From NCBI GenBank assembly GCA_944392765.1, contig CALXXU010000007.1, positions 1 to 56,682 of the forward strand: a stretch of DNA of 56,682 bases. The letters are read 5' to 3'. The number at the start of each line of letters is the position of its first letter. Positions within the stretch are counted from its first letter, which is position 1. Shown here in pieces: positions 35,406-50,955 of this stretch. This stretch comes from an uncultured Anaerobiospirillum sp. (GTDB lineage Bacteria; Pseudomonadota; Gammaproteobacteria; Enterobacterales; Succinivibrionaceae). The notes beneath the pieces are model-generated. The model was not told the origin of the DNA. It ran no database searches and saw only the letters and a program-made list of their open reading frames with translations. Made by a program: the position numbers and the translations under genes.

Positions 35406-37421
35406 TTATTTTACGCTATTCTTGGTTTGTGCGCCTCCTTTGTTCATATCTTCTTCATTTGCATTATCATTCTCAGTTGAGATTCCAGCTGAAACCTTGC
35501 TCTTACGGCGTTGCATGCTTGGTTTGCTTTCTTCTCCTGGCTGAGTCAGAGCAAGGTGGTTGGCTTCCGTTGGTGCGTCAGCGTTGACCTCAGATTGAGC
35601 CTCAGCGCTAACCTCGAGGTCGTTTTTGACCAGTGCTGCCGTGCGCTCGTGCTCAAAGTCGAGCTCGATTTGCGCGAGGGCTTGTGCGGTGAGTGCAGGG
35701 GCCTTGCTGGCAAAGCTACCTAAGAGCCCATTGAGATTACCGCGACCATCATAAAGCGAGGTGGAGAGGGTCTTGGTGGCATTGGTTAAAGTCTCAAGGG
35801 CACGGGTCACGGCCTGAAAATCGCGGCAGACTTTGTCGCCCTTGATCGCAATGCGCTCAGCTAACTTGCTGAGCTGCTTAAACTTCTCGCCTTGCTCAGC
35901 TAAGCTCCAGAGATTGCCCACTAAGCGTAAGGCCGGGAGCAGGGAGGATGGTGATACCAAGAAGATACCCTTTTCTTGGGCCTTGGTATAAAGATCAGGC
36001 TTAGCACGTAGCGCCAGGCCTAAGGCATGGTCAATCGGTACAAACATGAAGACCAAGTCTGGGCTGCCGTACTGCTCATATTGAGGGTAGTTGCGATCCA
36101 CCAGTTCGCCGACATGATGCTCCACCGACTCAATATGACGCTTTAAGGCGTCGCTCAAGCGCGCACGCAAGTCAGATGGAGAGATAGAGGTAATCGAGCC
36201 CTTAAGTTCGGTGAGCTTAGGGCTAGACTCGGCGTCAGTCAGCTCCGCATTAGGCGTGCTGGCAATGTCTAGAGAAGTGTCTTGAGCAGTGTCTTGAGCC
36301 GCGAGCGCAGGGACATCATCAGCTTTTGCTTCCAGATTAAAGAGCATGGCACTGGCATCAAGGCCGACACTGAGTGCCAATTGTTCGAGGTTGACGTACT
36401 CGGTGTAGGCTGCCAGTGAGCACTTGGCATCGATGACGATACCACGGTGGCCAGGGAGCTTAACGAGCGCATCAACGCGGCCGCGCTTACCTTGCTCATC
36501 ATCCTTGACTGCGACCTCGCGCAAATAGGTGACATCGCGCACTAAGCCAGCGGACTCAAGTACCAGCTCTAACTGCTGTTCACCCCAGATACCTTGGCTC
36601 TTATTGCCTTGCAGCAGGGCGGCCGCTAACTTATCGGCTTGTAAGCCCAAGCTTTGTTGGGCGGCATGGAGGTGCTTGAGCTCATTTTGTAATTGGCCTG
36701 CTTGCTCGGAGTTAGTCTTTTGGGTCGCAGTTAAGAGGTTGCGGAAGGTTTCAAGCTCAGAGGCTAGAGGCTTGATGATGGTACCCATCTGCTCCGAATT
36801 GAGCTTTTGCAGCGACTCGGAGCGTTCTTTGAGCAGGCGCTCCCCTAAGTTGTTAAGGCGCAGTTCCAGCTCTTGGGATGCCTTGTCATAGCGCTCTTGA
36901 TCAGCTTCACGCAGCTTTTGCACTGCCTCTTTTTCGCTCTTGGCCTGAGTTAAGTCATTGGTGGTGCTTTGTAGCTTAGTGCGCAGTGCTTCAAGCTCCG
37001 TGACTTGAGTGGCAATGCTTGCCTCGAGCTTTGAGACGGCATCTTGGTGGGCGGCCTTCACCTCTGCTAAGGTCTTTTGGTTTTCTTCTTGGCACTGGGC
37101 GCGGACCTGAGTCTCCTTCGCCGCTAGCTGCTCATGCAGGGCCTTGATGGCTTGATCGCGCTCGGCCAGGCTGGTGTCAAAGTGCGCTTTATCGGCACTT
37201 AAAGCCGCATTTTGGCTGGTTAAGCTCATATTGTCTTGTTGCAGGCGCACCAGCTCTTGGTTCTGGCCCTCTGAGCTTTGCTGTAAGCGCAGCAGCTCTT
37301 GTTGTAAGCCGCTGTTCTTGGTTTTGAAAATGGCCGCGCACACCACGGCAGCTAAGGCTACTACTAATAGAGCGATCAAGATGAGATTATCCACCAACGA
37401 AATCCTCACGATATCGAACAC
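35406..37421 (-). CDS. rmuC: DNA recombination protein RmuC
   Basis: A 671-residue RmuC-family protein. An N-terminal transmembrane segment (about 12-32) is followed by a long coiled coil (about 35-250). The RmuC nuclease-like domain comes next (GNKSQGIWGEQQLELVLE, VDALVKLPGHRGIVIDAKCSLAAY, LVFMFVPIDHALGLAL, LVSPSSLLPALRLVGNLW). A roughly 45-residue acidic Ala/Asp/Ser insert and a charged C-terminal tail make it longer than E. coli RmuC (475). The start is uncertain: GTG at 37421 is used here, but AGGA at 37404-37407 favours TTG/GTG at 37397 or 37394. RmuC limits sequence inversions at short repeats. Confidence 0.9.
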   Translation of the reverse strand: MFDIVRISLVDNLILIALLVVALAAVVCAAIFKTKNSGLQQELLRLQQSSEGQNQELVRLQQDNMSLTSQNAALSADKAHFDTSLAERDQAIKALHEQLAAKETQVRAQCQEENQKTLAEVKAAHQDAVSKLEASIATQVTELEALRTKLQSTTNDLTQAKSEKEAVQKLREADQERYDKASQELELRLNNLGERLLKERSESLQKLNSEQMGTIIKPLASELETFRNLLTATQKTNSEQAGQLQNELKHLHAAQQSLGLQADKLAAALLQGNKSQGIWGEQQLELVLESAGLVRDVTYLREVAVKDDEQGKRGRVDALVKLPGHRGIVIDAKCSLAAYTEYVNLEQLALSVGLDASAMLFNLEAKADDVPALAAQDTAQDTSLDIASTPNAELTDAESSPKLTELKGSITSISPSDLRARLSDALKRHIESVEHHVGELVDRNYPQYEQYGSPDLVFMFVPIDHALGLALRAKPDLYTKAQEKGIFLVSPSSLLPALRLVGNLWSLAEQGEKFKQLSKLAERIAIKGDKVCRDFQAVTRALETLTNATKTLSTSLYDGRGNLNGLLGSFASKAPALTAQALAQIELDFEHERTAALVKNDLEVSAEAQSEVNADAPTEANHLALTQPGEESKPSMQRRKSKVSAGISTENDNANEEDMNKGGAQTKNSVK

Positions 37422-37828
37422 AACGCTCTCATCTTAGCCTAAAACGCCATCAAGGGCAGCAAAGTCTTACGTTCAACAGCAATTAACTGGGCAGAGTAGA
37501 TTGTTTAAGGCAGGTACACCATATAAACAGCGCTCAGCCAGGAAAGTATAAGTACAGAACCGTGATTTTTACGGGGGATGTTGGAAAAGCGACGCAATTT
37601 TTTTGAAATTTGCTTGATCTTTGTGTTAGTAGTAGTCTACCATGGTTGTGTGTTATCGTTATTTAGTAGTTCCAGTAATGTGAACTCAAGTGTCGGAGTG
37701 GATGCGGCGCGCTCTTAGCTCCCGTGTCATTAGTTGGTCTTTTTGTTAAGTCACAGTTTTGCTGCTTTTGTCTTATGCTCAAGCTAATTTGATGCTAAGA
37801 TGAGAGGTAGCTTGTGCAGGTGGTCGTT
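37422..37828. other. AT-rich intergenic region at the left edge of the accessory block
   Basis: No gene is visible in about 400 bp. GC content drops and stays low into the following membrane-protein gene. It must hold divergent promoters for rmuC and the gene at 37829, but I cannot fix their boxes. Confidence 0.4.
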
Positions 37829-38221
37829 ATGTTTGACAAAATTGCTGAAGCTATTTTGGGTAATTACCCTGATAATAGCCAAGCCAGAGAATTAGAGATT
37901 CTCTGCCGGATTCTGGCATTAATTATATTAGGTGCTGTTATTTACCTTTTTACTGAAGAGGAAGATTCCGATCCTGTTAAGCATAAAGTGGTTTATTCGG
38001 TTCTTATATTAAGCCTGATAATCATATTATTTGTTAGTAATAAAATTTGTAAAATCAGACATAATGAACGTGCCAAGATGATGGCCACTCAAAATGAACT
38101 TCAACAGACTATTATTGCATATAATAAAGCTAATACTGAACGTGTAAAAGCTGAAACTGAAAAAATAAAGGCAGAAATAGATGTAATTAGAAGTAGTTCA
38201 ATTCCTTTGTCTAATCAATAG
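37829..38221 (+). CDS. Two-helix membrane protein with C-terminal coiled coil
   Basis: A 130-residue protein of unknown function. Two transmembrane segments (about 26-43 and 56-74), separated by an acidic EEEDSDP loop, precede a Lys/Glu-rich coiled coil (about 78-122). Start at ATG 37829 (MFDKIAEAI) after CAGGTGG; a GTG at 37814 is possible. It is AT-rich with different codon use from rmuC and ppk, so likely acquired. It lies 17 bp before the first of the small single-helix proteins, and the pair could be a functional unit. Confidence 0.65.
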   Translation: MFDKIAEAILGNYPDNSQARELEILCRILALIILGAVIYLFTEEEDSDPVKHKVVYSVLILSLIIILFVSNKICKIRHNERAKMMATQNELQQTIIAYNKANTERVKAETEKIKAEIDVIRSSSIPLSNQ

Positions 38222-38238
38222 CTTTGGAGGAGATAGCG

Positions 38239-38316
38239 GTGGAAGCTTATGTAGGAGTAACTATTGTAATTGCTTTTCTGGTGGTTGTATTCAGCTTTAT
38301 CTGGATGTACCACTAA
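38239..38316 (+). CDS. 25-residue single-helix membrane microprotein (copy A)
   Basis: Too short for routine gene calling. GTG start, MEAYVGVT, hydrophobic core, then SFIWMYH and stop. A strong GGAGG site lies 8 bases upstream. It is related to the small proteins at 49820, 49924 and 50549 by length, one central helix and the C-terminal F-x-R/W-M-Y motif. It is left of the terminator repeat, 17 bp after the 130-residue membrane protein. Candidate roles are a type I toxin-like peptide or a small subunit of a membrane complex; neither is proven. Confidence 0.55.
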   Translation: MEAYVGVTIVIAFLVVVFSFIWMYH

Positions 38317-38421
38317 TATAGAAGCTATGTTTTAGCTATTAATTGTGTAATAGCTGACTAGGGTAATTTGGAATCAAGATTGCGCTTTGCTTCTAAGCCG
38401 AATGCATCCCTTCCTTTTGCA

Positions 38422-38510
38422 TTTGGTTGTTGTCGGCTCAAACAAAACGCCCCACAATGCGCGCGCTGAGCGCGCAGCATTGTGGGGCGTTTTGCCTAAG
38501 GTTAGGATGG
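38422..38510. terminator. Bidirectional terminator, left copy of an island-flanking direct repeat
   Basis: A perfect 18-bp stem CAAAACGCCCCACAATGC (38443-38460) / its complement (38477-38494), extended by GCGCG pairs, gives an A-run 5' and a U-run 3', so it works on both strands. About 85 bp around it (TTTGGTTGTTG...GGTTAGGATG) is repeated with few changes at 50860-50944, in the same orientation. Confidence 0.85.
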
Positions 38511-38651
38511 TGATCTGCTTTCCACAATTTTAGTGTGGGATGTAGCAAAACGGCTGCCTGTACATACGGGCTTTAACTGACTATCCCTAACTAAATTACG
38601 GTGAGCCGGTATTAGGTCAGAACTTATGGGAATAGGAGAGAGGGCTCGTAG

Positions 38652-40271
38652 ATGGCTTCACTGACACTGACACATGTCTGCATGTGGTCAGAGCACGGGT
38701 GGAAGCGAATTACAGCAAAAAAGGCTGCGCGACTGCATGCCGGTGGAACCGTATCTGCGCATAGCGGTCTATTCATGTGCGAGCTGTGCGGACAGTATGT
38801 CACTCTTACTGATGGTGAGATCCGAACACGTCATTTCAGACACAGCGCCGCTGAAAAAGACAAAGATTGCCCTGAGCGTACTTTCGGGCCAAATTATTCG
38901 GTCTCGTATGAGCCGCAGAAACATAAGCTGCCTATTCGCATTGTGGTAACTGCGGGGGCTGCTCATGAGCCTTCATCTGCTTCATTTAGATTTGAGCTTG
39001 GTCTGATTAGGGCTCCCATCAGTACATTGGGCGCCGATTTTCGCATCGAGCTTAAACCTGCGGGCGCGCCGGAACCCAGCTGGGTGTTCACCAAAGAGCG
39101 GCTGAACAGCGAAGGTATTACCTATCTGACGCTCGGTTCTTTGCCTAGTGAAAAATACATTCTCGGTTTTAGCAACCTGAGTGATACACAGCACGATACA
39201 TTGCGCAAATTCTGGCCGGAAGAAATCAGCGGCATTAATCCTGAGGGTACCTTGTTTGACAAGGAAACAGGCCGTAAACTCACCTATGATGCTGATGTTG
39301 AGATTAACAAAGAGTATTACCTGCTCGTGTTAAACCGACCTGATAAGGCCGGTCTGTGCTCAAGCTCGAGCAGCAGCATACGCTTACAGGAGATTGCGCA
39401 GAAGAGAGCTGGTTGGGGCAGCTGGATTCTGTACGAAGTTTGCGCCTCTTCGTTGTGTGAAGAAGCAGCTAGGTTTTTTCTTAATTTTCACTGCCGCCTA
39501 ACAGATCATCCGATTTCGTTACAACCTGTGTGGCCTTTGTATGTGGCAGGCGAGTTCCTGATAAAACACAACCAGAACAACATGTTTATGTTTGTTGCAG
39601 GTAATGTGTTAGCAGTCAATACTTTTCCCCAGACCAAGGTACGCCCGCTAAGGTCTAGTAAGTCAGAGCAGTCCAAGCTCTATGAAATCAGCTGCCAAGG
39701 CAGGCAGCAGCTGATATCGGCAGGCCGTACTCAACCGTTGCAATACACCTATTTCTGGAAAGAGCCTCTTGCTAAGGTGGTCGCAATTCCAGAAATCTCA
39801 GTGCAGGATCTGTCCCAATCAGAGGTTCCACCCGGTGAAACCGATACGCTGCCGCGCAAAGGAGTCCTGCGATTCACATCCGCTTTTGACGGCGAACTCA
39901 TCATCTCTTATGGCAATCGTGTTACAGGCAGGCGAAAAATCCATGCCGACCAAATGCTGGAGCTGGATAGTCTGTCTTTTGGTGTTAAGGTACAGGCGCT
40001 CATCGGTCTGGATGAGGTCTGGTATATCCATTTCAAGAAACAGCAATCTGTCATCGCAGATAATGAGTCAGAAATCTTAAAGTACATCACTCGTACTTCC
40101 GGAGCCTCAATCCCATCCCCTCATGCGCTGCGCAACATTGCAGCCGCTTTAGCGGCTCGAGGCCGGTATCCGCAGCTGTGCCAGTGGCTGCGCTTATGTA
40201 TTCGGGATGGTTCCATCAATGAGCAGTCCTACCGAAAATTGCAACAGTTCTATCGAAATATAAATATATAA
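38652..40271 (+). CDS. Operon protein 1: CoiA-like zinc-site protein, unknown function
   Basis: A 539-residue protein. The N-terminal 80 residues form a probable zinc site, with Cys43 and Cys46 in MCELCG, His61 and His64 in RHFRH, and Cys73. This layout resembles the N-terminal finger of CoiA-like and other nuclease-associated proteins. The rest (80-539) looks beta-rich with no nuclease motif I recognise, and ends in a helical segment. AGGAGAGAGG lies before the ATG. It is the first gene of a four-gene operon ending in the large helicase, 31 bp before the next gene. DNA or protein sensing is possible, but inferred only. Confidence 0.65.
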   Translation: MASLTLTHVCMWSEHGWKRITAKKAARLHAGGTVSAHSGLFMCELCGQYVTLTDGEIRTRHFRHSAAEKDKDCPERTFGPNYSVSYEPQKHKLPIRIVVTAGAAHEPSSASFRFELGLIRAPISTLGADFRIELKPAGAPEPSWVFTKERLNSEGITYLTLGSLPSEKYILGFSNLSDTQHDTLRKFWPEEISGINPEGTLFDKETGRKLTYDADVEINKEYYLLVLNRPDKAGLCSSSSSSIRLQEIAQKRAGWGSWILYEVCASSLCEEAARFFLNFHCRLTDHPISLQPVWPLYVAGEFLIKHNQNNMFMFVAGNVLAVNTFPQTKVRPLRSSKSEQSKLYEISCQGRQQLISAGRTQPLQYTYFWKEPLAKVVAIPEISVQDLSQSEVPPGETDTLPRKGVLRFTSAFDGELIISYGNRVTGRRKIHADQMLELDSLSFGVKVQALIGLDEVWYIHFKKQQSVIADNESEILKYITRTSGASIPSPHALRNIAAALAARGRYPQLCQWLRLCIRDGSINEQSYRKLQQFYRNINI

Positions 40272-40302
40272 ATATGCAGAAATAAGAGATTAGGAGCGAT
40301 TT

Positions 40303-43194
40303 ATGAACTATATTGGACGTCTTAATAAAGAAGAAAAGGTAACATTATTTGTAATGTTACTCTCTGGTAAAGATTGCAAACAATTCTTTATACGTAACTC
40401 GTCGGTATTTAATTCGATAAAAAAGGGTTTTAGAGCAACAAAGATAACAGAAAATAAAGCATTATTAATTGCTTTAGATAATATAGATGATGCTCGTATT
40501 TTACTGAGTTTTAACAATGTGGTTGATGATCGCATTAAGCAGATTCATAAAGAAATCTCACATCTTGAAGAAAATGGAGCATCTCATAACACTGCTTTAG
40601 CAACAGCTCTGATTAATAGTGAATTTTTTATGAATATTGAGCTGTACTTCAAGCTGACGGATAATGTTCTGGATAATGATACCCGCGCTGCTATTTATGC
40701 TGAAATGAATAACCTATCTCATCTTTTGAATGAAACGTTCGATCAGGTTGAGGCAACTGAACAGAAAAATCGCAGTTTGACTGATCAGAACCTCAATCTG
40801 ACCAAACAGGTTGAAGCTGCTGAACAGAAAAATCGCAGCCTGACAGAGCAGAATCACAGTCTGACCGAACAGGTTGATGCGATGATTGAGGTGATCCGTA
40901 GCAGCAAAGCAGCCAGCGAGGAGAAAGTTCGGGAAATAGAGAAGAGTAAAGCCTCATTAGATTCTAAGCTTACTGCAGCACAGGCCAAAATTGCAGAATT
41001 GGAGACCGCTGCCGCAGCTGCTACCATTGCTGTAAATACTGTCACCATTGCTGACGCTGGTTCCGGTGCTGATGCTGATTATCTGACACAATTTGATGAC
41101 ACAAACACTGCTGCCCTATCTGCTGATGGTCCTGATGAAATCATTTCTTTATGCACTATCTCTAATCTTAACGACCAGCATAACCCGAAGGAACTCAGAC
41201 GATATGCCGATTTGGATAATGGTCGTTATAACACTTTTCTGAGAGATAGAAGTATTTCACCATATTTCAAAAATAGAGATAGATTGTTCTGTAATGACGG
41301 ACCTTCTGATGTTGGCTTTTATGGCATCTGGAATTGGTCTGCTATCCCGAAGGCGAATGATCCGGAAAAGGATTTTATAAAATCATCTTATAATAAAGAT
41401 ATAGCTGCTATTGAAGTTGTTACAGTGGCGGATGTAACTACCATTGATGAGCTTGCAGAACTCCTGAAAAATGGTATTGAATTTGTGCCACATAGCGGAA
41501 AAGTAATGTTTACTACTTGTGCCTCCGGAGGTCGATATACCGGCATTCTCTGTGAAGTTAAGAAATTGCATACTGCTAATGGTAAAACTACTATTTCCGC
41601 AGATTGCACTGTGCTTCCTGTTTATGAATTTGCCGGAGATGATGTTCTGCGTTTGGGCAATATCTCCTTCTATCGTAAAGCATTTGCCGGTATTCCCAAC
41701 AGACTTTGTTATCTGAAAAGTCAGCTTGAAACTGTTAAAGATATTGTTTTGTCATCACTTTCCTGGGGTGTGTATAAAACAAGAAATATAACTCATGCTC
41801 AACATCGGGCATTCAAAGAGTTTGTCGAGGCAATTCCGGTTGATGATATAACACAAAAGATAGTAGCTGCATGTCACTGTTCCCTTGCTGCGGCTAAAGA
41901 ACTGCTCGATGAGTTTCTGCGCACAGTCGATAAATATGTAGATGGCGACAGTTTGGGCGATGAAATTGTCCGCTCGGCGGTTGCAGCAAATGCGAGCGTT
42001 CGCGAAAAAGCGAAGAATCTGGTTCGCCAGGACTGGGAAGCGGAAAATGCAAAGCTGTTGAGTGATGCCAAAGGACAGCTTGAGTCACTGCGTGCTGAGC
42101 AAGAATCAGCAGCTGGAGACTTACGTAATGCGCAGGATGCGCTGGAAAAGGCTAAAGCTGAAGAAGCGCGCCTGACTGACTCCATCGTCAAAAAGGAAAA
42201 TTTAGCTGCTGAGGTCGAACAGGCGGTTGCTGCCAGGATCCAGAAAGCTCGTGAGAATGCGGCGGATTTCATTGCCGAAATGGCTTTCGCTGGTATGCCT
42301 GCCGTTCAGTCAATGCCACAGATGCCAGCCAGAGGTGCAGCGGTGCAAGGCCTTCCGGTTTCCTCGTCTGAGACTTATCGCGTATGTCCTGAAAGTGATA
42401 ACCGCAACGAGCTTGAAGAGCATCTCTTTTGGGAAGATGTCATCATGGCAACTGAGCTCGGACTGGGAGATGCGGGGGTGGCCCAAAAATACGGTCAAGG
42501 TCTCGCGGCATTTCTCTGCGCAGCCTATATTAAAAAGCAACCGTTGTTACTGGTAGGGCCTAATGCCATTGATATCATCGAGGCCTTCAGCGCAACTTTA
42601 TGTGCTCATAAGCATGGAGTGCTCTGTTGTGAGGGCAGCTACGACCGTCAGGCGATTGAGAAAATCGGTGCCGCAGGCGAAAGCATCGTGCTTATCAATA
42701 ACCTCCTCGCCAGTGGTTGGATAAATCGACTGCCGGAGATTCTGGCTCGAAAAGACATCTTCTATGTCGCGACCCATCCGTATGCCGCAGACATTCAGGT
42801 TGAACCGGGGAGCCTGTATGGCTTTATGCTGCCGCTGTTCACGGAGCTTCTGGTAGATCAACCGGCAAATGGTCAATACTTGGGTGGATATCTGGCTGAA
42901 GAGTTAAAAGAAGAGATCAAAACATATCAGGCACCAAAGCGGGAGCTACCTGTCCTCTCTGAACTTGCGCCAAGCCTGCTGGTTAAGAACAGGATCGAGT
43001 GCCTTGCAGCTACGATGCACAAGATTTGTCCTAATGCTACAGCGGACGATGATTTCATGTTCTGCTTGCTCCCAATTGCCTATGCCTCAATGGCTGTGAA
43101 TAAGCTTGCGGAGAAAATGGCTGACCCACAGAGAGGCATTGTCATTTCTAAAAATCTCAAAGATGACCTTAAGTTTGTGCTGGGAGAGCTTTGA
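40303..43194 (+). CDS. Operon protein 2: coiled-coil protein with degenerate ATPase-like C-terminus
   Basis: A 963-residue protein. Residues 1-140 are a helical domain. Residues about 145-235 are a coiled coil built from internal repeats (QVEATEQKNRSLTDQN and QVEAAEQKNRSLTEQN). A globular middle (about 275-520) is followed by a second coiled coil (about 580-670). The C-terminal domain (about 700-963) contains LLLVGPNAIDII where a P-loop would sit, without the GKS/T, so an inactive AAA/P-loop fold is suspected. The 5' third is AT-rich and the rest is not. Its stop shares an A with the next start (TGATG). By position and size it may correspond to DruF of type II Druantia; I cannot confirm this. 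Confidence 0.6.
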   Translation: MNYIGRLNKEEKVTLFVMLLSGKDCKQFFIRNSSVFNSIKKGFRATKITENKALLIALDNIDDARILLSFNNVVDDRIKQIHKEISHLEENGASHNTALATALINSEFFMNIELYFKLTDNVLDNDTRAAIYAEMNNLSHLLNETFDQVEATEQKNRSLTDQNLNLTKQVEAAEQKNRSLTEQNHSLTEQVDAMIEVIRSSKAASEEKVREIEKSKASLDSKLTAAQAKIAELETAAAAATIAVNTVTIADAGSGADADYLTQFDDTNTAALSADGPDEIISLCTISNLNDQHNPKELRRYADLDNGRYNTFLRDRSISPYFKNRDRLFCNDGPSDVGFYGIWNWSAIPKANDPEKDFIKSSYNKDIAAIEVVTVADVTTIDELAELLKNGIEFVPHSGKVMFTTCASGGRYTGILCEVKKLHTANGKTTISADCTVLPVYEFAGDDVLRLGNISFYRKAFAGIPNRLCYLKSQLETVKDIVLSSLSWGVYKTRNITHAQHRAFKEFVEAIPVDDITQKIVAACHCSLAAAKELLDEFLRTVDKYVDGDSLGDEIVRSAVAANASVREKAKNLVRQDWEAENAKLLSDAKGQLESLRAEQESAAGDLRNAQDALEKAKAEEARLTDSIVKKENLAAEVEQAVAARIQKARENAADFIAEMAFAGMPAVQSMPQMPARGAAVQGLPVSSSETYRVCPESDNRNELEEHLFWEDVIMATELGLGDAGVAQKYGQGLAAFLCAAYIKKQPLLLVGPNAIDIIEAFSATLCAHKHGVLCCEGSYDRQAIEKIGAAGESIVLINNLLASGWINRLPEILARKDIFYVATHPYAADIQVEPGSLYGFMLPLFTELLVDQPANGQYLGGYLAEELKEEIKTYQAPKRELPVLSELAPSLLVKNRIECLAATMHKICPNATADDDFMFCLLPIAYASMAVNKLAEKMADPQRGIVISKNLKDDLKFVLGEL

Positions 43195-44255
43195 TGAGCA
43201 GAAATGGCGAACTGCTCATGCAGGTGGCGCAGCAGTATCACCTTCTTAAAGGTGACCGAGAGGCTGATAGTGAGTGGAAAGCCCGGCTTATTTACAGCAT
43301 CTGTGGGATGATGGCCTATGCCAGCCTCTGGGACGAGTCAGCAGAACCCTCCTCGGACGAGGGCAGGCATCTGCAAACTGTCTCGATTGTGCACCTGAAA
43401 AGAAGAGTCAGCAGGATCCTTGCTGTTTATCAAGCCTTGTACCCCGAACTTGCGGCGAGCTTGCCAGCTGACGCTCAAGCGCTGGCTGATGAAATTGAAC
43501 AGCAGTTCACCGCTACGGGCGTTGTTTATCATCGTCCTTATAGAATGGCTCCGGCTGCACGGCGTGAGGCACCGTGCTGTGACATTCTCTTCCAGAGAGG
43601 CATTGCGCTGGATGATATCTCGCGGGTGTCCGGCCTTGGCTTTTATGCGTTAGCTGCCGGGCATGATGGTGAAGCTAATCCAGATACCAATGCTGCTGCA
43701 ACGATGTTAGGGCTAGAACAGGAGCCACTGCAAGAGCTGTGGCACAGAATAGTGGCTGCTGCCGCATGGCGCGCTCCGGAATATTATTTTGAGACCTCAT
43801 CTGATACGGAGTACCTGCGCTTAAAGCCGCCATTTTCCGGTGGGTACTGGGGGCCAAAGCCGGATCAATCTGGTAGCGCTGCCATGCTGCGTAGTGGTAA
43901 TCCTGGGGCGCAACTGTATTATCTGTACCGGTACCGAGATAAGGTGCTTGAGGTCAGCCAGCTGCCGCAGTGGCAGGTGGAAAATTCTAACTACAGAACT
44001 TTGGCCTGTGCCTGTCTTGCAGACCGGGGCACATTACCACCGATTACGTACTGTGAGGACGGCCCACTGATTCATATTCGTCTTGGTTACCTGTTGCCAC
44101 CGCGTGAGCTTAACTTTCTTAAGTGCTATAGTTGGCCAGAAACGTGTAACGAGCTGCCGTGTGATTTCAAGCGCAAGCTGTCCACAGAAGTATTTATTGC
44201 CATTAAAAGCCTTTTGTCTCAAGCAGGGTATATCTTTCAAGAGGGGAGGTTCTGA
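43194..44255 (+). CDS. Operon protein 3: unknown, coupled to the helicase
   Basis: A 353-residue protein with no recognised motif. The N-terminal part is helical (RLIYSICGMMAYASLW) and the C-terminal half is mixed with several Cys and Trp residues. ATG at 43194 overlaps the previous stop by one base (TGATG) and GGAG lies 8 bases before it. The TTG at 43191 is less likely. Its own stop again overlaps the helicase start by TGATG, so proteins 2, 3 and 4 are translationally coupled and probably form a complex. A DruG-like role is possible from gene order only. Confidence 0.6.
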   Translation: MSRNGELLMQVAQQYHLLKGDREADSEWKARLIYSICGMMAYASLWDESAEPSSDEGRHLQTVSIVHLKRRVSRILAVYQALYPELAASLPADAQALADEIEQQFTATGVVYHRPYRMAPAARREAPCCDILFQRGIALDDISRVSGLGFYALAAGHDGEANPDTNAAATMLGLEQEPLQELWHRIVAAAAWRAPEYYFETSSDTEYLRLKPPFSGGYWGPKPDQSGSAAMLRSGNPGAQLYYLYRYRDKVLEVSQLPQWQVENSNYRTLACACLADRGTLPPITYCEDGPLIHIRLGYLLPPRELNFLKCYSWPETCNELPCDFKRKLSTEVFIAIKSLLSQAGYIFQEGRF

Positions 44256-47200
44256 TGTCTGAGCGAGCAACTGGGAGCACTAAAGCCACCGGAGCCAATT
44301 CGGTTCACAAGCAGCTGAGAACGGGACTTGAAGACTACATTAAATCCCAGTACTTTGGTAAGTCCCCGCTGTTGCTTGCGGCACTGAACCAGCATATTGA
44401 CGATGAAGGCTTGCTGTACCAGAAACCATTCATTGAGTCCTCGCCCTCCTATGTGACCGTACCAAATGGCATAGAGAAGGCAGCCCTTGAAGATTGGATG
44501 AAAGCTTACTTCCTACAGCTGGCCCAGGCGGGTACGGGAGTCTTCACTTCGCCTTTTGCCCACCAGATTGCGGCGCTGGAGGCGGCGGTGTGTGGTGAAG
44601 ACCTGTTTGTGGCGACAGGAACTGGCTCGGGTAAAACCGAGTGCTTTATGTGGCCGCTTCTGGCCAAGATGGCGACGGAGGCAAGAAACTCAAAGGATTC
44701 GTGGGCTCAACGTGGTGTTCGCACTATTATCATGTACCCTATGAACGCCTTAGTTTCAGATCAGATCAGTCGCTTAAGAAAGATGATCGGAGATCCAGCC
44801 AGGAAATTTGTTCGGATCTTTCGCGATACTTGCGGTGCTCAAGTGCGTCGCCCGCAGTTTGGAATGTACACCGGTAGAACGCCATACCCTGGACCTCAGC
44901 CTTCTGAGCCTCAAGACAAAAGGCTGGCCAAGACCCTCAAGAGCATATCTTTTCCACGCAGCGATGCAGAAAAGGATTTTTTTAACCGTCTGCTCCAAGA
45001 GGGAAAGATTCCGGCCAAGGCCGAGATGAGCCGCTTTCTTCAGGAGCTGCTCGAGAGTCAGCATCTTCCAGACGATGAAGATGCCGAACTGATTACCCGC
45101 TTTGAGATGCAGCAGTTCTGCCCAGATATTCTCATCACTAACTATTCGATGCTGGAATACATGCTGCTGCGCCCGACCGAGCAAAAGATCTGGAACGATA
45201 CCCGTGCCTGGCTGGCGTCTGACCCTGCCAACAAACTGCTATTTGTCATCGATGAAGCTCACATGTACCGTGGTTCATCAGGTGGTGAGGTAGCCTTGCT
45301 GATCCGTCGGCTCTTCCATAAGCTTGGTATTGGTCGTGACCGGGTGCAGTTCATTCTCACCACAGCCAGTATGCCTAACAACAGCCCGCAGGACAAAGAT
45401 GCCGTAAAGAAGTTTGCCACTGAGCTTACGGCTTGCGATATGGCTTCAGGTACGGCCCAATCTTTCCACTATTTGACCGGAGAAAGAGAGGTCATTGACG
45501 GGCAGCTGCGATACGATATTCCGGCCGCTCTGCTTCTGAGCTCAGATCCCGGCCGCTTTGAAGACCGCGATGAAGTTAAACTTCCGGCGCTGCTAGCATT
45601 CTGGAGCCAGGTGTCTGGGTTTGACTCTACTATTTCCTCTTTGGATGGGCTGTACCACTGGATGTACGACCATCTGGCCCAGTACCGGCCGTTCAATGAG
45701 CTGATCAGGCTATGCCGAGGCAATGCGGTATCCCTAGGCGAGCTTGCTGCTGCGATTTTCCCAAAGCTTGGTCAAGAAGAGGCACTCAAAGCGGTTAGTG
45801 TCCTGCTAGCGATTGCTCCGCTAGCGCGCAATGCCAAGGGCTCGGTGCTCTTTCCGGCCCGTATGCATATGCTCTTCCGGGGCATTTCTGGGGTCTATGC
45901 CTGTGCCAATGCGGACTGTCCTCATGCTCATAGTGCCGGTGGCCTCACTCTGGGCGAAATCTTTCTCTCGGATGGTCATCTGGTCTGTCCCCACTGTGGC
46001 AGCGTGGTCTATGAGCTTTATAACGACCGCCGTTGTGGCGCATTGTTCTTTAAGGGCTATGTGTTGGAAACTGCGGCGGGACAGGGCTTTCAGGAAGATG
46101 CCGTTTATCTGTGGCGTTATCCTGGTCAGCTGATGGATCAGCGGATGAAGGAAATCCATCTGTTCATTCCGACCGATGATTTTGTGCTCCCGGCTAAACA
46201 GGGTAAAAACTCAGTCAAACCATGCTACCTTGATGTCACAAGTGGCTTTATCAACTTCACCGACGACTCCTTGGCCGGAAAGCCTGGGATTAGAAAGCTA
46301 TACTGGTGTGACTACTCCGCTAAAGGTCGGCCGCAGATTCTCACCTTCACCACCTGTCCGCATTGCTGGCATCAGCTTTCGGCCACTCAGCTCACCTCGT
46401 TCAACACCCGAGGCAATCTATCCTTTTTCAATCTGATCAAAGCGCAGTTCCAGCTCCAGCCAGCGGTGCCGGGTAAGGATAAAGATCCGGACCGCTTCCC
46501 TAATGCCGGACGTAAGGTCCTGCTCTTTTCAGATAGCCGTCAGCGGGCGGCAAAACTGGCGCGCGATATGTCTGAGGCCTCGGATATCGCAGCGGCCCGA
46601 CAGCTCTTTGCTCTTGCCATCAAAATGATGGATGAGCAAGCGACGCAGCAGTCCGAGGAACAGTCAATGGATTGTTTGTATGGCTGGTTCTGTCTTGCCG
46701 CTGTGCAGCGTCATGTCCAGATTTTTCATGGTGAGGAGCGCAAGGACTTTGCTGACGACTGTCGCCAAGTCTTGAATTTACTCAATTTATGTGCCCGGCA
46801 CGGTAGAGAGTTCGTTCCGTCTTTGTTTTTGGCAAATGCTCCGGTGCAGATGCAAGAGTATCTGTTAAGGCTGTTTGCCGGGGGCTATAACACCCTGTAT
46901 GACTCGGCAACCAGCTGGATTGAGCCTACTTGGCAGCCGCTTTGTTATGCGCTCGATGAGCTTGCTGATAATGGTGTGTCGGTTACTGAGGCTGAATTTA
47001 TTGAACTTTTCAATGCCTGGATGCTGTCTATCTGTGATGTAGCTACCGCGATCGGTCATACCATCACCGATGATGTCAGAAAGAAAGTCCGTCCTAACTA
47101 TGGTGGCTATGGCCTTGATCAGAATTGGGGCTTCTCTAAAACTATCCGTGAAATTATGGGATGGCGCGGAGACAACGAGACCGAGCAGGTGTGGAAACGG

Positions 47201-49582
47201 GTGTTAAAGGATAGATTCCTTGAAACTAATCGCTCTGACAGCGGGAAGTTGTACGTTGACATTACGCGGGTGAAACCACGCTTTGATGCCGAGCATGTGT
47301 GGTACAAGTGTGAGCAGTGCTCGGAACTTACTCCGTTTACGCTGAAGGGCAGATGCCCAAGCTGCGGCTCTGAGCATATCCATGCAATGCAGCTGGACGA
47401 ATACGATGCTCTCAGTTTCTGGCGGCGGCCGATTGATGAGGCGCTGCACGGCGCGCCGATTCATGTGATCGACACTGAAGAGCACACCGCTCAGCTTTCG
47501 CACAAAGATCAACGTGATGACCTCTGGAGCAAAACTGAGGAGTATGAACTGCGCTTCCAAGACTTGGTTCCGGAGGGAGAAACGCCGGTTGATATCTTAA
47601 GTAGTACCACTACGATGGAGGTTGGTATTGATATTGGCTCGCTGGTCGCGGTCGGTTTGCGCAATATTCCGCCGATGCGTGAAAATTACCAACAGCGTGC
47701 CGGTCGTGCCGGTCGACGCGGTTCCATTCTGTCCACTATTATTACTTTCTGCGAAGACGGTCCGCATGACACCCTGTACTTCAACAACCCAATTCCTATG
47801 CTCCGTGGTGACCCTCGGCGGCCGTGGATTGATACCAGAAGTGAGAAGCTGCTGCAGCGCCATCTGGCGATGGTGATTCTCCAGGAGTTTCTGGCACAAA
47901 AACAGACGAGCTTGGATACGCTGGCAGCGTCGGACTTTCTTAACACTTACCTTGACGCTTTTGAGAGCTGGCTGGCTGTTTATGATGTTACTAAGGACAG
48001 CTTGCTCCTGCCGACCGGGGTATCTTTTGACGAGGCCGCGTTTAAGGACGAACTTAAAAAATCCTTGGCCGCACTGAAGCAAAAATGCCAGCAACATCCG
48101 GAGCTCTTTGGAGTTGAAGAGAGCGAAGCAGAATCCAAATATGGCAGAAGGAAGGCCAAGGCGCTCCTCGATGCGCTCTATGAAGAAGGCATCATCCCGA
48201 CCTATTCTTTCCCGAAGAATGTTGTCAGCACCTACATCCAAGATAATCAAGGCAAAATCAACTACGAGGTTGACCGTGGTCTCGATATCGCCATTGGTGA
48301 ATATGCGCCGGGCCGGGCCATTGTCGTGGACAAGCAGACTTACCAGATCGGCGGCTTCTTCTATCCGGGTAGTGAACAACGTCGGGGTACGTTGCTAAGT
48401 CCGGCCCGTACTTACACTGACGATCCAAATTATGTCAAGGAGATTCTTACTTGTCCCGAGTGTGGCTGGTTTGGTCTTAAAGAAGAGCAGATCAGGCGTT
48501 GTCCTTTCTGTGGCAACGGAACACTGGAACAGACGCTCGATATGATGCGCCCATGGGGCTTTGCGCCGCGAAATGCCGAATCAATTCCGGAGGCTCAGCT
48601 CGAGGAAGAGTACACGGCGGTGCAGCAGCCGCTGTATTCGACTCTGCCTGAAGCCGAAGAAATGAAGCTGGCGCCGGGCTGTAAAAATATTCGGATAGCC
48701 GCGCGCACCAACCAGCGCATTATCATGATGAATAAGGGCGCAAGTAACAAGGGCTTCATGGTCTGCAAAGATTGTGGTGCCGCCATGCCTGGTGATAATC
48801 CTGCCGTACTCAAAGGCATCAAAAGGCCTTATAGGTCGAACTTACTCAGAAGTAACAAATGCAGTCACAACGAGTGTTTCAATGTTAACCTTGGCTATGA
48901 CTTCATCACGGACATGCTGGTGCTCGAGTTCACCATTGACGGCAAGCAAATTGATGACCGCAGAAAGGACAACCCATGGCTGAACCGTGCGGCACAGTCA
49001 CTGGCCGAGGCTTTTCGTCTCACCGCCAGTAAAAAGCTTGATGTTGAGTTCACTGAGTTGGTAACCGGTTACCGTCTCAGAACTGGTGCGCAAGCCTCTT
49101 ACGTCGACATCTATCTTTATGACAATCTGTCGAGCGGCGCCGGCTATGCCGTCAGTGTCGCGGATGCGATTGATGAGCTGCTTACTGACATGAGGGAGCT
49201 GTTGAGCTCATGCGATTGTGGATCGGCCTGCTCCAAATGTCTTAAGCACTACCGCAACCAGTACGTACACGGCATGCTCGACCGCTTTGCGGCACTGCAA
49301 CTGCTGGAGTGGGGGGGTGACGGAAAAAAGGCTGAGCCGCTCACAGCGGAGCAGCAGTGGAACATTATTGAGCCATTGAAGCACATTCTCAGTCAGTACG
49401 GCTGTGAGATTGTCACGGACGGCGCAATCAAGGTAATCGGACGTGGTGGCACCGCCAAAAAGCTTGTGGTCTATCCGGCAATGTGGGCCGAGCCGCAGGC
49501 TGCCGATACCATTTTCGTCAGCGATGCCTATATCAGGTACGCTAAGCCTTATGCGGTCCGAAAGATTCAGGATCTCAGCTGA
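44255..49582 (+). CDS. Operon protein 4: large YprA/DruE-type DEAH helicase with DUF1998
   Basis: A 1775-residue superfamily 2 helicase. Walker A is TGTGSGKT (121-128), the DEAH box 333-336, and motifs V-VI STTTMEVGIDIG and QRAGRAGRRG near 1146-1156. Between and after the RecA domains are several zinc-ribbon pairs (CPHCG, CPHCW, CEQC with CPSCG, CPECG with CPFCG, CKDCG). The C-terminal DUF1998/MZB-like domain has SSGAGYAVSVADAI and a C-x-C-x3-C-x2-C cluster near 1652. Known relatives: YprA/MrfA helicases, DISARM DrmA/B and Druantia DruE. The size and fusion of helicase to DUF1998 fit DruE best. A GGGGAGG site precedes the ATG. Confidence 0.8.
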   Translation: MSERATGSTKATGANSVHKQLRTGLEDYIKSQYFGKSPLLLAALNQHIDDEGLLYQKPFIESSPSYVTVPNGIEKAALEDWMKAYFLQLAQAGTGVFTSPFAHQIAALEAAVCGEDLFVATGTGSGKTECFMWPLLAKMATEARNSKDSWAQRGVRTIIMYPMNALVSDQISRLRKMIGDPARKFVRIFRDTCGAQVRRPQFGMYTGRTPYPGPQPSEPQDKRLAKTLKSISFPRSDAEKDFFNRLLQEGKIPAKAEMSRFLQELLESQHLPDDEDAELITRFEMQQFCPDILITNYSMLEYMLLRPTEQKIWNDTRAWLASDPANKLLFVIDEAHMYRGSSGGEVALLIRRLFHKLGIGRDRVQFILTTASMPNNSPQDKDAVKKFATELTACDMASGTAQSFHYLTGEREVIDGQLRYDIPAALLLSSDPGRFEDRDEVKLPALLAFWSQVSGFDSTISSLDGLYHWMYDHLAQYRPFNELIRLCRGNAVSLGELAAAIFPKLGQEEALKAVSVLLAIAPLARNAKGSVLFPARMHMLFRGISGVYACANADCPHAHSAGGLTLGEIFLSDGHLVCPHCGSVVYELYNDRRCGALFFKGYVLETAAGQGFQEDAVYLWRYPGQLMDQRMKEIHLFIPTDDFVLPAKQGKNSVKPCYLDVTSGFINFTDDSLAGKPGIRKLYWCDYSAKGRPQILTFTTCPHCWHQLSATQLTSFNTRGNLSFFNLIKAQFQLQPAVPGKDKDPDRFPNAGRKVLLFSDSRQRAAKLARDMSEASDIAAARQLFALAIKMMDEQATQQSEEQSMDCLYGWFCLAAVQRHVQIFHGEERKDFADDCRQVLNLLNLCARHGREFVPSLFLANAPVQMQEYLLRLFAGGYNTLYDSATSWIEPTWQPLCYALDELADNGVSVTEAEFIELFNAWMLSICDVATAIGHTITDDVRKKVRPNYGGYGLDQNWGFSKTIREIMGWRGDNETEQVWKRVLKDRFLETNRSDSGKLYVDITRVKPRFDAEHVWYKCEQCSELTPFTLKGRCPSCGSEHIHAMQLDEYDALSFWRRPIDEALHGAPIHVIDTEEHTAQLSHKDQRDDLWSKTEEYELRFQDLVPEGETPVDILSSTTTMEVGIDIGSLVAVGLRNIPPMRENYQQRAGRAGRRGSILSTIITFCEDGPHDTLYFNNPIPMLRGDPRRPWIDTRSEKLLQRHLAMVILQEFLAQKQTSLDTLAASDFLNTYLDAFESWLAVYDVTKDSLLLPTGVSFDEAAFKDELKKSLAALKQKCQQHPELFGVEESEAESKYGRRKAKALLDALYEEGIIPTYSFPKNVVSTYIQDNQGKINYEVDRGLDIAIGEYAPGRAIVVDKQTYQIGGFFYPGSEQRRGTLLSPARTYTDDPNYVKEILTCPECGWFGLKEEQIRRCPFCGNGTLEQTLDMMRPWGFAPRNAESIPEAQLEEEYTAVQQPLYSTLPEAEEMKLAPGCKNIRIAARTNQRIIMMNKGASNKGFMVCKDCGAAMPGDNPAVLKGIKRPYRSNLLRSNKCSHNECFNVNLGYDFITDMLVLEFTIDGKQIDDRRKDNPWLNRAAQSLAEAFRLTASKKLDVEFTELVTGYRLRTGAQASYVDIYLYDNLSSGAGYAVSVADAIDELLTDMRELLSSCDCGSACSKCLKHYRNQYVHGMLDRFAALQLLEWGGDGKKAEPLTAEQQWNIIEPLKHILSQYGCEIVTDGAIKVIGRGGTAKKLVVYPAMWAEPQAADTIFVSDAYIRYAKPYAVRKIQDLS

Positions 49583-49819
49583 ACCTCCTGATAATCTCCG
49601 CTGAACCACCGCCTGATCTGGGCCGTAGAACGTCCAGATCAGGTATTTGATCTGATTGCAGACACAGCTCACAAAGTTTCAGCACAGATATGCGGTAATG
49701 GGAGAAAATAGAGTAATTTGAATGAAAATACAAATTTAGGCACAGATGCGCCTAAATCTTGAAAGCTCAAGCATAAATGCCATAGCAGGCCAGATGCCAG
49801 ATTCGATGGAGAAATCTTT
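49583..49819 (+). promoter_or_regulatory. Leader region of microprotein copy B
   Basis: AT-rich spacer after the helicase stop. A perfect 8-bp hairpin ATTTAGGC/GCCTAAAT (49734-49741 and 49750-49757) lies about 62 bases before the ATG. The last 30 bases (TGCCAGATTCGATGGAGAAA) match the leader of copy D at 50549. Confidence 0.45.
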
Positions 49820-49903
49820 ATGGACCTTGATACCTTTATCAATATCGGTTTAGTTGTTGGTTTTGCTATTATAGTGCTTAGTTTTGTTAGAATGTACTGG
49901 TAG
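49820..49903 (+). CDS. 27-residue single-helix membrane microprotein (copy B)
   Basis: MDLDTFINIG, a hydrophobic helix of about 15 residues, then SFVRMYW and stop. GGAG lies exactly 8 bases before the ATG. It is nearly identical to copy D at 50549, where substitutions are conservative and third-base changes are frequent, a sign of selection on the peptide. Predicted topology is a short acidic N-terminus outside and a basic/aromatic end inside the membrane. It lies about 240 bp downstream of the helicase. Confidence 0.7.
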   Translation: MDLDTFINIGLVVGFAIIVLSFVRMYW

Positions 49904-49923
49904 TTTAGTAAAGGATAATAAAA

Positions 49924-50022
49924 GTGGAGATTGTTATTGGCATCACTGTTTGCTGTGGTATTGGTACTATATTCGTGAATTTCGCCAGAATCGGTACGAT
50001 GTACCGAACATACGTTTCATAA
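49924..50022 (+). CDS. 32-residue single-helix membrane microprotein (copy C)
   Basis: GTG start after AAGGAT, MEIVIGIT, Cys-Cys in the helix, then NFARIGTMYRTYVS. It is related to copies A, B and D in length, central helix and the R-x-x-x-M-Y end, and starts only 20 bp after copy B. Its 3' half forms the left arm of an inverted repeat whose right arm encodes a decayed antisense copy. Confidence 0.55.
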   Translation: MEIVIGITVCCGIGTIFVNFARIGTMYRTYVS

Positions 50023-50227
50023 AATTTTAAAAATTCTAGCAACATTTGCCTTAAGATTAACCATTGACGTTGAAAATAACTGGCATTTTAAGTTGAGAAA
50101 TGTCTGATTAATCTGTGTACCTATGGTACACCGAGAAAATTTAATATATGAAGCAGATTTATTGATGGTTATATCCTTGTCGCAAGGCAAAAGTTGCTAG
50201 AATTTTTAAAATTTTATGAAACGTATG
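50009..50227. repeat. Perfect 35-bp inverted repeat with 149-bp spacer
   Basis: 50009-50043 (starts CATACGTTTCATAAAATTTT) is exactly complementary to 50193-50227. Weaker complementarity extends outward on both sides for about 45 bp, across the coding part of microprotein copy C. The spacer holds a palindrome TGTACC-TAT-GGTACA near 50117-50131 and a TTGACG hexamer at about 50067. The two arms arose by inverted duplication and may form a long stem in RNA or DNA. Confidence 0.85.
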
Positions 50228-50291
50228 ATCGGTGCGTTGTACCAATTCTAGAGAAATTTACGTATATTGTATGGTCTTTACTACATGGCAA
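50214..50291 (-). pseudogene. Inverted, decayed copy of microprotein C
   Basis: Read on the minus strand, this frame ends VNFSRIGTTHRSYVS and stop, against VNFARIGTMYRTYVS in copy C. The N-terminal half has diverged, the ATG/GTG and ribosome site are lost (only a TTG near 50291), and an in-frame stop lies just upstream. Confidence 0.6.
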
Positions 50292-50548
50292 ATGGCCCTA
50301 TCTTTAAGAAGAAAAATAAATTAAGATAATCCTAATTTAGATCAAGGCTGTGAGTTTAACGTAAATCTAATGAGCCGGTAATAACTCTTAGTAAATTGGT
50401 TTAAGCCCAACGCAAGCTTGCTCTTAAGACATTGATGGCTTATTAGCTCAAATCGCATAAACATGCGGTTTAATGCTTGCACTCCAACTGCGCTGGATGA
50501 ATATGGAAACATACGTAGTTGATTGCCAGATTTGGTGGAGAAAGCTTT
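50292..50548 (+). promoter_or_regulatory. Leader region of microprotein copy D
   Basis: AT-rich spacer. A 9-bp hairpin AAATCGCAT/ATGCGGTTT with one G-T pair lies at 50450-50471, about 78 bases before the ATG. The final block TGCCAGATTTGGTGGAGAAA is shared with copy B. No other gene is visible. Confidence 0.4.
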
Positions 50549-50632
50549 ATGGATCTGGATGTTTTTATAAATATAGGTTTAGTGGTTGGTTTTGCGGTTA
50601 TGTTATTTAGTTTTATTAGGATGTATTGGTAG
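50549..50632 (+). CDS. 27-residue single-helix membrane microprotein (copy D)
   Basis: MDLDVFINIG, a helix beginning LVVGFAVML, then SFIRMYW and stop. GGAG lies 8 bases before the ATG, as in copy B. Of 27 residues only about 5 differ from copy B, while several silent changes separate the genes. It lies about 230 bp left of the right terminator repeat, with no larger gene between. Confidence 0.7.
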   Translation: MDLDVFINIGLVVGFAVMLFSFIRMYW

Positions 50633-50859
50633 TACGTCCTTAAGACTGCAAAGCTAAGCCCCGTCGCACATTTGGCACCACGAGAATCGATTTTCTAGAA
50701 ATGGCCATTACAAGCCAATCTTGACGCGTCATGGCGGTGTACGACCCACTAAAGCATAACCTCCAACCCATGGATGCATGTGGTAAAACCGCGAAAATAA
50801 GGGATTTTACTTAATTCGTTAGCTCTGGTGCCAAATATGCGCTCCGTCATGCTTCTGCC

Positions 50860-50944
50860 TTTGGTTGCTGTTGGCTCAAACAAAACGCCCCACAATGCGC
50901 GCTGGGCGCGGCATTGCGGGGCGTTTTGCCTAGAGGTTAGGATG
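50860..50944. terminator. Terminator of ppk; right copy of the island-flanking direct repeat
   Basis: Stem CAAAACGCCCCACAATGC (50881-50898) pairs with 50911-50928 with one mismatch. A-run and U-run flanks make it bidirectional. It lies just after the ppk stop on the minus strand. About 85 bp match the copy at 38422-38510 in direct orientation. Confidence 0.85.
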
Positions 50945-50955
50945 AGGAGCGCGGA

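Follow-up and report, generated by a model that had tools for sequence, protein, structure and literature searches.

A probable type I-lineage Druantia operon, druB-druC-druD-druE, without druA in an uncultured Anaerobiospirillum sp.

The window analysed in this study, by which we mean the whole stretch of 56,682 nucleotides from contig CALXXU010000007.1 of an uncultured Anaerobiospirillum sp. (GCA_944392765.1), contains at positions 38652-49582 four open frames, all on the + strand, which we read as an antiphage operon of the type I Druantia lineage with the order druB-druC-druD-druE. We put the probability of this reading, including the absence of druA by lineage and not through local damage, at about three in four. 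The coordinates of the frames agree with those of an earlier annotation made by a model from the sequence alone (the original prediction), and the genes are as follows.

38652..40271, + strand: gene 1, DruB homologue; 539 aa, with an N-terminal zinc-type site, several immunoglobulin (Ig)/fibronectin type III (Fn3)-like beta domains and C-terminal helices
40303..43194, + strand: gene 2, DruC homologue; 963 aa, with a helical N-terminus, a coiled coil, a beta domain (residues ~280-470), a second coiled coil and a C-terminal AAA+-like domain without the Walker A lysine
43194..44255, + strand: gene 3, DruD homologue; 353 aa if started at the ATG of the TGATG overlap, 354 aa if at the TTG at 43191
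44255..49582, + strand: gene 4, DruE of type I; 1775 aa, a YprA-family superfamily 2 helicase with Cys clusters, an MrfA Zn-binding domain (MZB) at residues 1584-1663 and a short C-terminal region

A gap of 31 bp separates genes 1 and 2, and TGATG overlaps are present in the sequence at the gene 2/3 and gene 3/4 junctions, as the original prediction of four co-directional genes with two such overlaps had it. Related loci were taken as the 80 best matches to the window's DruE, less L059 and L074 (duplicates of the contigs of L016/L017 and L035), leaving 78. All four genes were present in 68 of these loci and stood in order on one strand in 67, so that the arrangement is not a product of chance; among the 67, genes overlap or touch at the 1/2 junction in 46, at the 2/3 junction in 47 and at the 3/4 junction in 41. 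The original prediction had counted protein 1 as part of the system, and its homologues do accompany the helicase in those 68 loci; the recurrent order is also the one that it had proposed to look for in genome neighbourhoods. Fewer than four genes were found in 10 of the 78 loci, nine of which start within 0.6 kb of a contig edge. Locus L119 has 2.3 kb of upstream DNA with no recognised partner gene, and in L062 druE is convergent to druBCD.

Gene 4 matched the PADLOC model DruE1 (PDLC00013) with 1718.7 bits over residues 10-1772 of its 1775, whereas the best model of the next family, DruE2 of type II Druantia, scored 609.9 bits, 1109 bits below. Its Pfam domains are DEAD, Helicase_C and MZB, the last of which we take to be the former DUF1998, and the predicted 1775-residue DEAH helicase with zinc ribbons and DUF1998, at the centre of a Druantia-related operon of the YprA/DruE type, is thus borne out. 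In an alignment of 72 DruE sequences, the window's included, the Walker A motif GTGSGKT, the DEAH motif and 20 cysteines were identical throughout, and the MZB cysteines were conserved in 97-100%. Conserved cysteines of the protein cluster at residues 550/555/578/581/594, 701/704, 1019/1022/1034/1037, 1400/1403/1416/1419, 1504/1507/1536 and 1653/1655/1659/1662. The same alignment revealed, after the MZB, no conserved set of acids and lysine typical of a nuclease, and no phospholipase D (PLD) domain was matched in gene 4 by Pfam. Type I DruE is described as carrying an inactivated Vsr domain (PMC12458937), with which the C-terminal region of the window's DruE agrees.

The identity of genes 1-3 was approached through family profiles, built from the neighbours of loci found by a contig scan with the DruE alignment, and by reference to the operon of Pseudomonas putida plasmid pKF715A (NZ_AP015030.1, L023), in which DruA is annotated. 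When profiles without the target protein were compared by hhalign, the DruB family matched P. putida DruB (97.6%, E 3.4e-12), the DruC family P. putida DruC (82%, E 1e-5) and the DruD family P. putida DruD (90%, E 1.5e-6), while a negative cross-comparison of the DruB family with DruC gave 0.1%. The profiles of genes 1-3 also matched the second, third and fourth genes of the pKF715A operon, in that order, at 2e-13, 3e-7 and 4e-5, the first value being possibly partly circular, with its target in the final member list. The PADLOC models matched further family members: DruD1 (PDLC00008) was matched at E <=0.01 by 44 of the 50 aligned DruD members, at best 1.5e-166, and at E 0.01 18 of the 54 DruC members matched PDLC00006 and five PDLC00007. 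Two loci bridge the families and the models, namely L110 from Anoxybacillus (DruB1 881, DruC1 1176 and DruD1 551 bits) and L102 (DruB1 373 and DruD1 517 bits, with no DruC model matched). Because the DruE1 score, the profile links and the bridging loci all point the same way, the operon very probably belongs, as judged from sequence comparison, to the type I lineage with the order B-C-D-E.

In gene 1, residues 39-76 gave sub-threshold Pfam matches to CoiA_N (17.8 bits, cut-off 26.3) and DUF7830 (20.3 bits, cut-off 27.5). The zinc-type site consists of C43, C46, H64 and C73, which together with F62 and P295 are conserved in no fewer than 98% of the 60 sequences aligned, and the CoiA-like Cys/His site of the original prediction is to that extent real. 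A CoiA-type nuclease was considered and rejected, as the CoiA_N match is below the cut-off and covers the zinc site only and no nuclease domain was found by Pfam. An AlphaFold2 model of DruB (predicted local distance difference test, pLDDT, 89.2) consists of a zinc-site N-terminal region, several beta sandwiches and C-terminal helices, for which Foldseek returned Ig/Fn3 proteins at E 2.6e-5 and weaker, with low TM-scores. The DruC model (pLDDT 80.7, predicted TM-score 0.40) places two coiled coils, with helices at residues 125-239 and 564-660, on either side of a beta domain, followed by a C-terminal alpha/beta domain; Foldseek against the PDB returned RavA (6q7l, E 6.8e-4, the sole match below 0.001) and then BrxL, again with low TM-scores. 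All 54 DruC members lack the Walker A lysine, and none contains GxxxxGK[ST] anywhere. In the Walker B motif 47 of the 54 have N or G at the place of the second acid and two have D there, the first position being D or E in 22. We read the C-terminal domain, on which the Foldseek matches were placed by inference, as a predicted inactive AAA+ domain. The coiled-coil protein with a P-loop-like, Walker-less domain that had been foreseen for gene 2 therefore holds good. Its interpretation as an SMC- or JetC-like ATPase was rejected, the matches being to coiled coils only, and when the profiles of genes 1-3 were run against the PDB gene 2 again found coiled coils, genes 1 and 3 yielding one chance-level match each. 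The coiled-coil region of druC also holds a 63-base tandem duplication, 83% identical, at 40744-40869. No nuclease is recognisable in the sequences of the four proteins.

DruA was not found in the window. Its family (DUF4338, PF14236) gave no match in the genome from which the window derives, a draft assembly of 180 contigs totalling 3.59 Mb, in a search in which no control genome gave a match either. Four phmmer queries run over 97 loci found DruA in L020 and L023-L026 only and in none of the 78 related loci, and a 10-member DruA profile run over 105 loci found just its own ten members, which scored 302-835 bits in leave-one-out tests. In 57 of the 78 loci druB is present with at least 1.5 kb upstream, enough to accommodate a druA such as the one of 1.2 kb that stands ahead of druB in L020, L023 and L026. 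Across 31 genomes and records, PF14236 was detected in four, all of them DruA-positive operons kept as controls, and was negative in 27. Because the loci were chosen as the 80 best matches to the window's DruE, the sample is biased, and the druA-less count applies to the clade and not to type I systems in general. Of nine plasmid records in which 80% or more of DruE was covered, eight carried DruA, and the ninth, from Natribaculum (L133), showed no DruA in the 23 kb read. On two Rhodobacterales plasmids (L129 and L130) DruA-type DUF4338 genes also follow a gene for an ATP-binding protein, L130 being without DruE in the 26.5 kb read.

A DruE tree with 91 rows contained a clade of 74, the window's among them, in which no DruA was seen (support 100 in the Shimodaira-Hasegawa-like approximate likelihood ratio test, SH-aLRT), and eight DruA-positive rows fell outside it. 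A second tree, from which eight long, partial or outgroup rows were omitted, again placed the 70 remaining clade rows on one side of a 100-supported branch. Both trees were quick ones without a mixture model, and some of the 74 clade rows have little upstream DNA. Four Bacillota loci without DruA (L110, L115, L116 and L118) lie outside the clade, in the first tree beside the DruA-positive P. putida row, which implies more than one loss or gain of DruA (a minimum of 4 changes in the first tree and of 3 in the second). The clade comes mostly from gut bacteria. Gut-type Clostridia supply the DruE sequences nearest to the window's (Flavonifractor, 79% identity), the copies of Anaerobiospirillum succiniciproducens standing on another branch, and the simplest reading of this sequence pattern is that the operon may have been transferred between phyla. 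Within the family, DruE1 was matched at E <=1e-60 in 7 of 56 genomes; A. succiniciproducens DSM 6400 (L059) carries the operon. A contig scan with a single protein gave no confirmed relative, and a DNA search with the first 3938 bases of the L020 druE found no match in E. coli.

Several genomes hold further copies or pieces of such genes. In A. succiniciproducens genome G406, contig C31 (L016, L041) bears a complete druBCDE, a small open reading frame (ORF), a second druB-C-D and then a druE cut by the contig end, and contig C87 (L036) a second DruE with another DruC-like gene. In G400, of the same genus, a 1547-aa and a 1633-aa DruC-like protein of one operon (L018, 1720-6363 and 7114-12015) have a common N-terminal region and stand beside shorter druB-like and druC-like pieces; a fusion of DruC to an active RlmL-like methyltransferase was rejected for these, UPF0020 being matched above its cut-off in the first protein only (27.9 bits) and neither containing the motif [DNS]PP[YFW]. 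On contig C15 of the window's own genome (L022, 9815-15907) a further helicase of 2030 aa, the second that is DruE-like but a distant one, is encoded ahead of a gene of 1049 aa. In G429, a relative, druBCD is on C57 (L038), and C8 (L042) carries a fragment of DruE whose frame contains a stop.

Modification genes are attached to the operon in several relatives. In seven loci (L035, L072, L073, L076, L077, L078 and L080) a C5 methyltransferase and then a restriction endonuclease precede druB, the endonuclease ending ~15-51 bp before it; the C5 methyltransferase of L073, the one scanned, is fused to an HTH_26 helix-turn-helix (HTH) domain. A search with one seed found Eco47II-like endonucleases in L035, L073, L076, L078, L080 and L083, the last an eighth locus in which only an endonuclease is visible, at the contig edge and overlapping druB. 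The endonuclease of L072 is EcoO109I by Pfam, and that of L077 is 80% identical to it. In L109 a C5 methyltransferase lies 1.9 kb downstream of druE (the tree label DCM takes in both L109 and L083). Nine loci have a D12 adenine methyltransferase 1-132 bp downstream of druE, confirmed by Pfam in L102, and six have a small HTH ORF 22-114 bp before druB, the two that were scanned both being HTH_26. In the window's half of the clade (38 rows) no such C5 or D12 gene was present in the DNA covered, and no family matched more than three of 89 neighbour proteins from that half, among the best 25 of 76 families. Beside the window's operon itself there is no methylase, as the original prediction had noted, and no second helicase or PLD gene. 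Five further contigs of the window's genome gave C5 methyltransferase matches, and a D12 gene was matched nowhere in it.

The operon lies in an island bounded by two core genes, the features of which are listed below.

37407..50950, no strand: island between rmuC and ppk, approximate limits, from the blastn junctions of G402 and G405
35406-37421, - strand: rmuC (Pfam RmuC)
50956-53133, - strand: 725-aa gene that we take to be ppk
38443..38494, no strand: hairpin, a terminator-like palindrome, copy 1, just before druB (minimum free energy -45.9 kcal/mol, z -8.0)
50881..50928, no strand: hairpin, copy 2, next to the ppk stop (minimum free energy -36.2 kcal/mol, z -5.6)
37814-38221: upstream ORF of 135 aa

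Both rmuC and ppk were found in all ten genomes of the genus, on the same contig in nine (in G398 on two contigs). In the two genomes closest by ppk identity, G402 (96%) and G405 (94%), rmuC adjoins ppk, and the 13.5 kb between them in the window are therefore an insertion in this genome; in blastn of the rmuC-ppk junctions the G402 and G405 matches end at window positions 37406 and 37396 and resume at 50951 and 50971. The corresponding gap in G406 is ~4.4 kb. Downstream of druE, 1.4 kb without a large ORF lead to ppk. A 121-base stretch at 38400-38520 is repeated at 50852-50944 and contains the near-identical hairpins of ~50 bases, a repeat found in this genome at these two places only, which may be either a mark of the insertion route or copies of the ppk terminator. 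The ORF at 37814-38221 was rejected as a fifth gene of the operon, having no PADLOC match and a best Pfam E of 0.0048 that is below its family's cut-off. Tiny ORFs of 27-30 aa, each with a membrane span and with similar endings, lie around the operon at 38224-38316, 49820-49903 and 50549-50632; the latter two share a 32-base motif (0 matches in 100 shuffles, the pattern having been written from these same sites), and the first was likened to them by eye. Just 3' of druE, at 49965-50271, is an inverted repeat with 88-base arms that are 88% complementary.

Type I Druantia is a known system, reportedly from the work of Doron et al. (2018). It is also described in PMC7251935. With the type I operon DruA-B-C-D-E of pKF715A the window's operon has in common DruE1, homologues of DruB, DruC and DruD, the gene order, the DruB zinc site and the DruC coiled coil; it differs, as does its clade, in that no DruA is seen, and the DruB proteins of L023-L025 are 15% identical to gene 1 in the alignment. 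The operon is thus a divergent, druA-less variant of type I Druantia, and the absence of DruA is its real departure from the named system. Type III Druantia (DruH-DruE) has the DruE core in common with it and possibly Ig-like partner domains, reported for DruH (PMC13192584) and suggested for gene 1 by the fold search, whereas genes 1-3 have no DruH match and the window's DruE, of 1775 aa, has no Pfam match to PLD and is shorter than the 2107-aa helicase of an E. coli plasmid (L134). DISARM, ARMADA and Dpd have a YprA-like helicase in common with the operon, and gene 4 partially matched DrmA, with at most 36.1 bits, and DpdJ, with at most 73.4 bits. The DrmA helicase was the only DISARM match among the best 25 of 30 families for gene 4 and no Drm protein was matched by genes 1-3; DISARM and Dpd were accordingly rejected, since only the helicase matches. 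Judged by titles and abstract openings, searches of open-access PMC text found no description of a druA-less type I branch or of its methyltransferase cassettes, and they found no mechanism for type I Druantia. The variant is nevertheless not invisible to the field, because the PADLOC models DruB1, DruC1 and DruD1 already match the druA-less L110 strongly.

The original prediction had favoured a different reading, namely a type II system without its methylase in which the zinc protein takes the position of DruM. Type II Druantia, also known as Type IV CoCoNuT (DruM-DruF-DruG-DruE), has a YprA-family helicase and a coiled-coil protein with an inactive NTPase in common with the operon (PMC12458937), the DruE2 models do match the helicase, and the inactivated McrB-like GTPase described there, which has an extended coiled coil, is similar in plan to gene 2. 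This reading is hardly credible, however, given that DruE1 outscores DruE2 by the margin reported above and that genes 1-3 are tied to DruB, DruC and DruD of type I. PADLOC models of DruF, DruG and DruM gave no match with genes 1-3 up to E=1, a negative limited by the HMMER filters, which drop most matches above E 0.1, and proteins 2 and 3 did not score as an ordinary DruF and DruG. The DruG model was touched by two of the 54 gene 2 homologues (best 9.5e-4), possibly through the coiled coil. Since genes 1-3 are the type I set, the zinc protein stands in DruB's own place and not in that of DruM, and besides the four genes there is no methylase-sized ORF between rmuC and ppk. Still very improbable is a chromosomal operon for DNA repair or housekeeping: YprA-family helicases do include repair enzymes (PMC12458937), but the DruE1 distribution in the family is patchy (the 7 of 56 genomes), the operon sits in an island between core genes that adjoin without it in close relatives, its nearest kin are in another phylum and restriction-modification genes are attached to it in relatives.

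Two further readings turn on DruA. The operon might be an incomplete five-gene type I system, defunct through loss of DruA or served by a DruA encoded elsewhere, as DruA is a named type I component (PMC7251935) and is carried by eight of the nine plasmid records considered above. We regard this as improbable: the four frames are open, their order is kept in 67 of 78 loci, nearly all in the 100-supported clade without a visible DruA, PF14236 is absent from 27 of 31 genomes or records, and such long conservation of the four-gene set argues for function. Somewhat better placed, though still unlikely, is a composite system in which a methyltransferase takes the part of DruA and DruBCDE acts on unmodified phage DNA, the methyltransferase being supplied here from another locus. 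The C5 and endonuclease cassettes, the downstream D12 genes and the C5 matches on other contigs of the window's genome speak for it, as does the report of a phage protein that evades type I Druantia by promoting methylation (PMC12904381); it is opposed by the lack of a flanking methyltransferase in the window and of C5 or D12 genes in the covered DNA of the 38 half-clade rows, by the finding that none of the best 25 of 76 families matched more than three of their 89 scanned neighbours and by the missing D12 gene in the window's genome. Moreover, L048, L060, L077, L092 and L106 have HsdM-like type I methylase genes 0.1-8.6 kb away, so that the cassettes may simply share defence islands with the operon.

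Several observations weigh against a type I-lineage antiphage operon without druA. Taken alone, gene 1 of the window matched PADLOC DruB1 with 14.7 bits, over the zinc site only, gene 3 matched DruD1 with 14.4 bits and gene 2 matched no DruC model up to E=1. The identity of genes 1-3 as apparent from sequence thus rests on family profiles, of which DruC is the weakest, and the 2e-13 hit of the gene 1 profile on P. putida DruB may be partly circular; the DruC profile did not find the 954-aa protein that stands in the DruB-DruC position of the DruA-positive L020 (0.2%). In addition, both fold searches gave low TM-scores. Since the window's genome and several relatives are draft assemblies, a DruA at another site might have escaped detection, and in 21 of the 78 loci either druB or 1.5 kb of DNA upstream of it is lacking. 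Druantia is listed as methylation-dependent (PMC12904381), and no methyltransferase adjoins the operon. A non-canonical nuclease may also be present.

From these comparisons we infer that the druBCDE operon probably protects against phage and acts as a helicase machine. How it would do so can be proposed tentatively by analogy with type III, whose DruE is reported to be a helicase-nuclease acting on 3'-tailed DNA and whose DruH, with Ig-like domains, is a likely sensor (PMC13192584). Our working model is of a helicase-driven complex on phage replication intermediates, with DruB as an arm and DruC as a scaffold. DruE would load on 3' single-stranded tails or on stalled or recombining phage DNA, as reported for its type III counterpart, and would translocate with ATP; DruC, to judge from its fold, might bring the complex together on DNA as a non-hydrolysing AAA+/coiled-coil scaffold. 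DruB, which has a zinc site and Ig-like domains, might recognize a phage protein or unusual DNA ends, and DruD could be a structural adaptor. The output would be to block or unwind the phage DNA or to hand it over to host nucleases, which is the likelier since none of the four proteins contains a recognisable nuclease. In some sub-branches the co-encoded methyltransferase may mark the host and so allow self to be told from non-self. A bolder and rather doubtful possibility is that the druA-less clade is a separate Druantia subtype, a self-sufficient, nuclease-free DruBCDE that spread between gut phyla and in whose sub-branches interchangeable DNA methyltransferases (HTH-C5 with a restriction partner, or D12 adenine) provide the signal that separates self from non-self and so assume the role of DruA in canonical type I.

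Model-based counts may miss such copies of the operon, the window's DruB and DruD lying at 14-15 bits (these being scores of single PADLOC models and not of its gene rules). The same DruBCDE core is found attached to restriction-modification genes or to an adenine methyltransferase, and the combination of an inactive AAA+-like domain with the lack of a recognisable nuclease poses the sharp question of what stops the phage DNA. The broad natural branch without DruA suggests that DruA is outside the obligatory core of the system, and druBCDE would be a four-gene minimal set to reconstitute.

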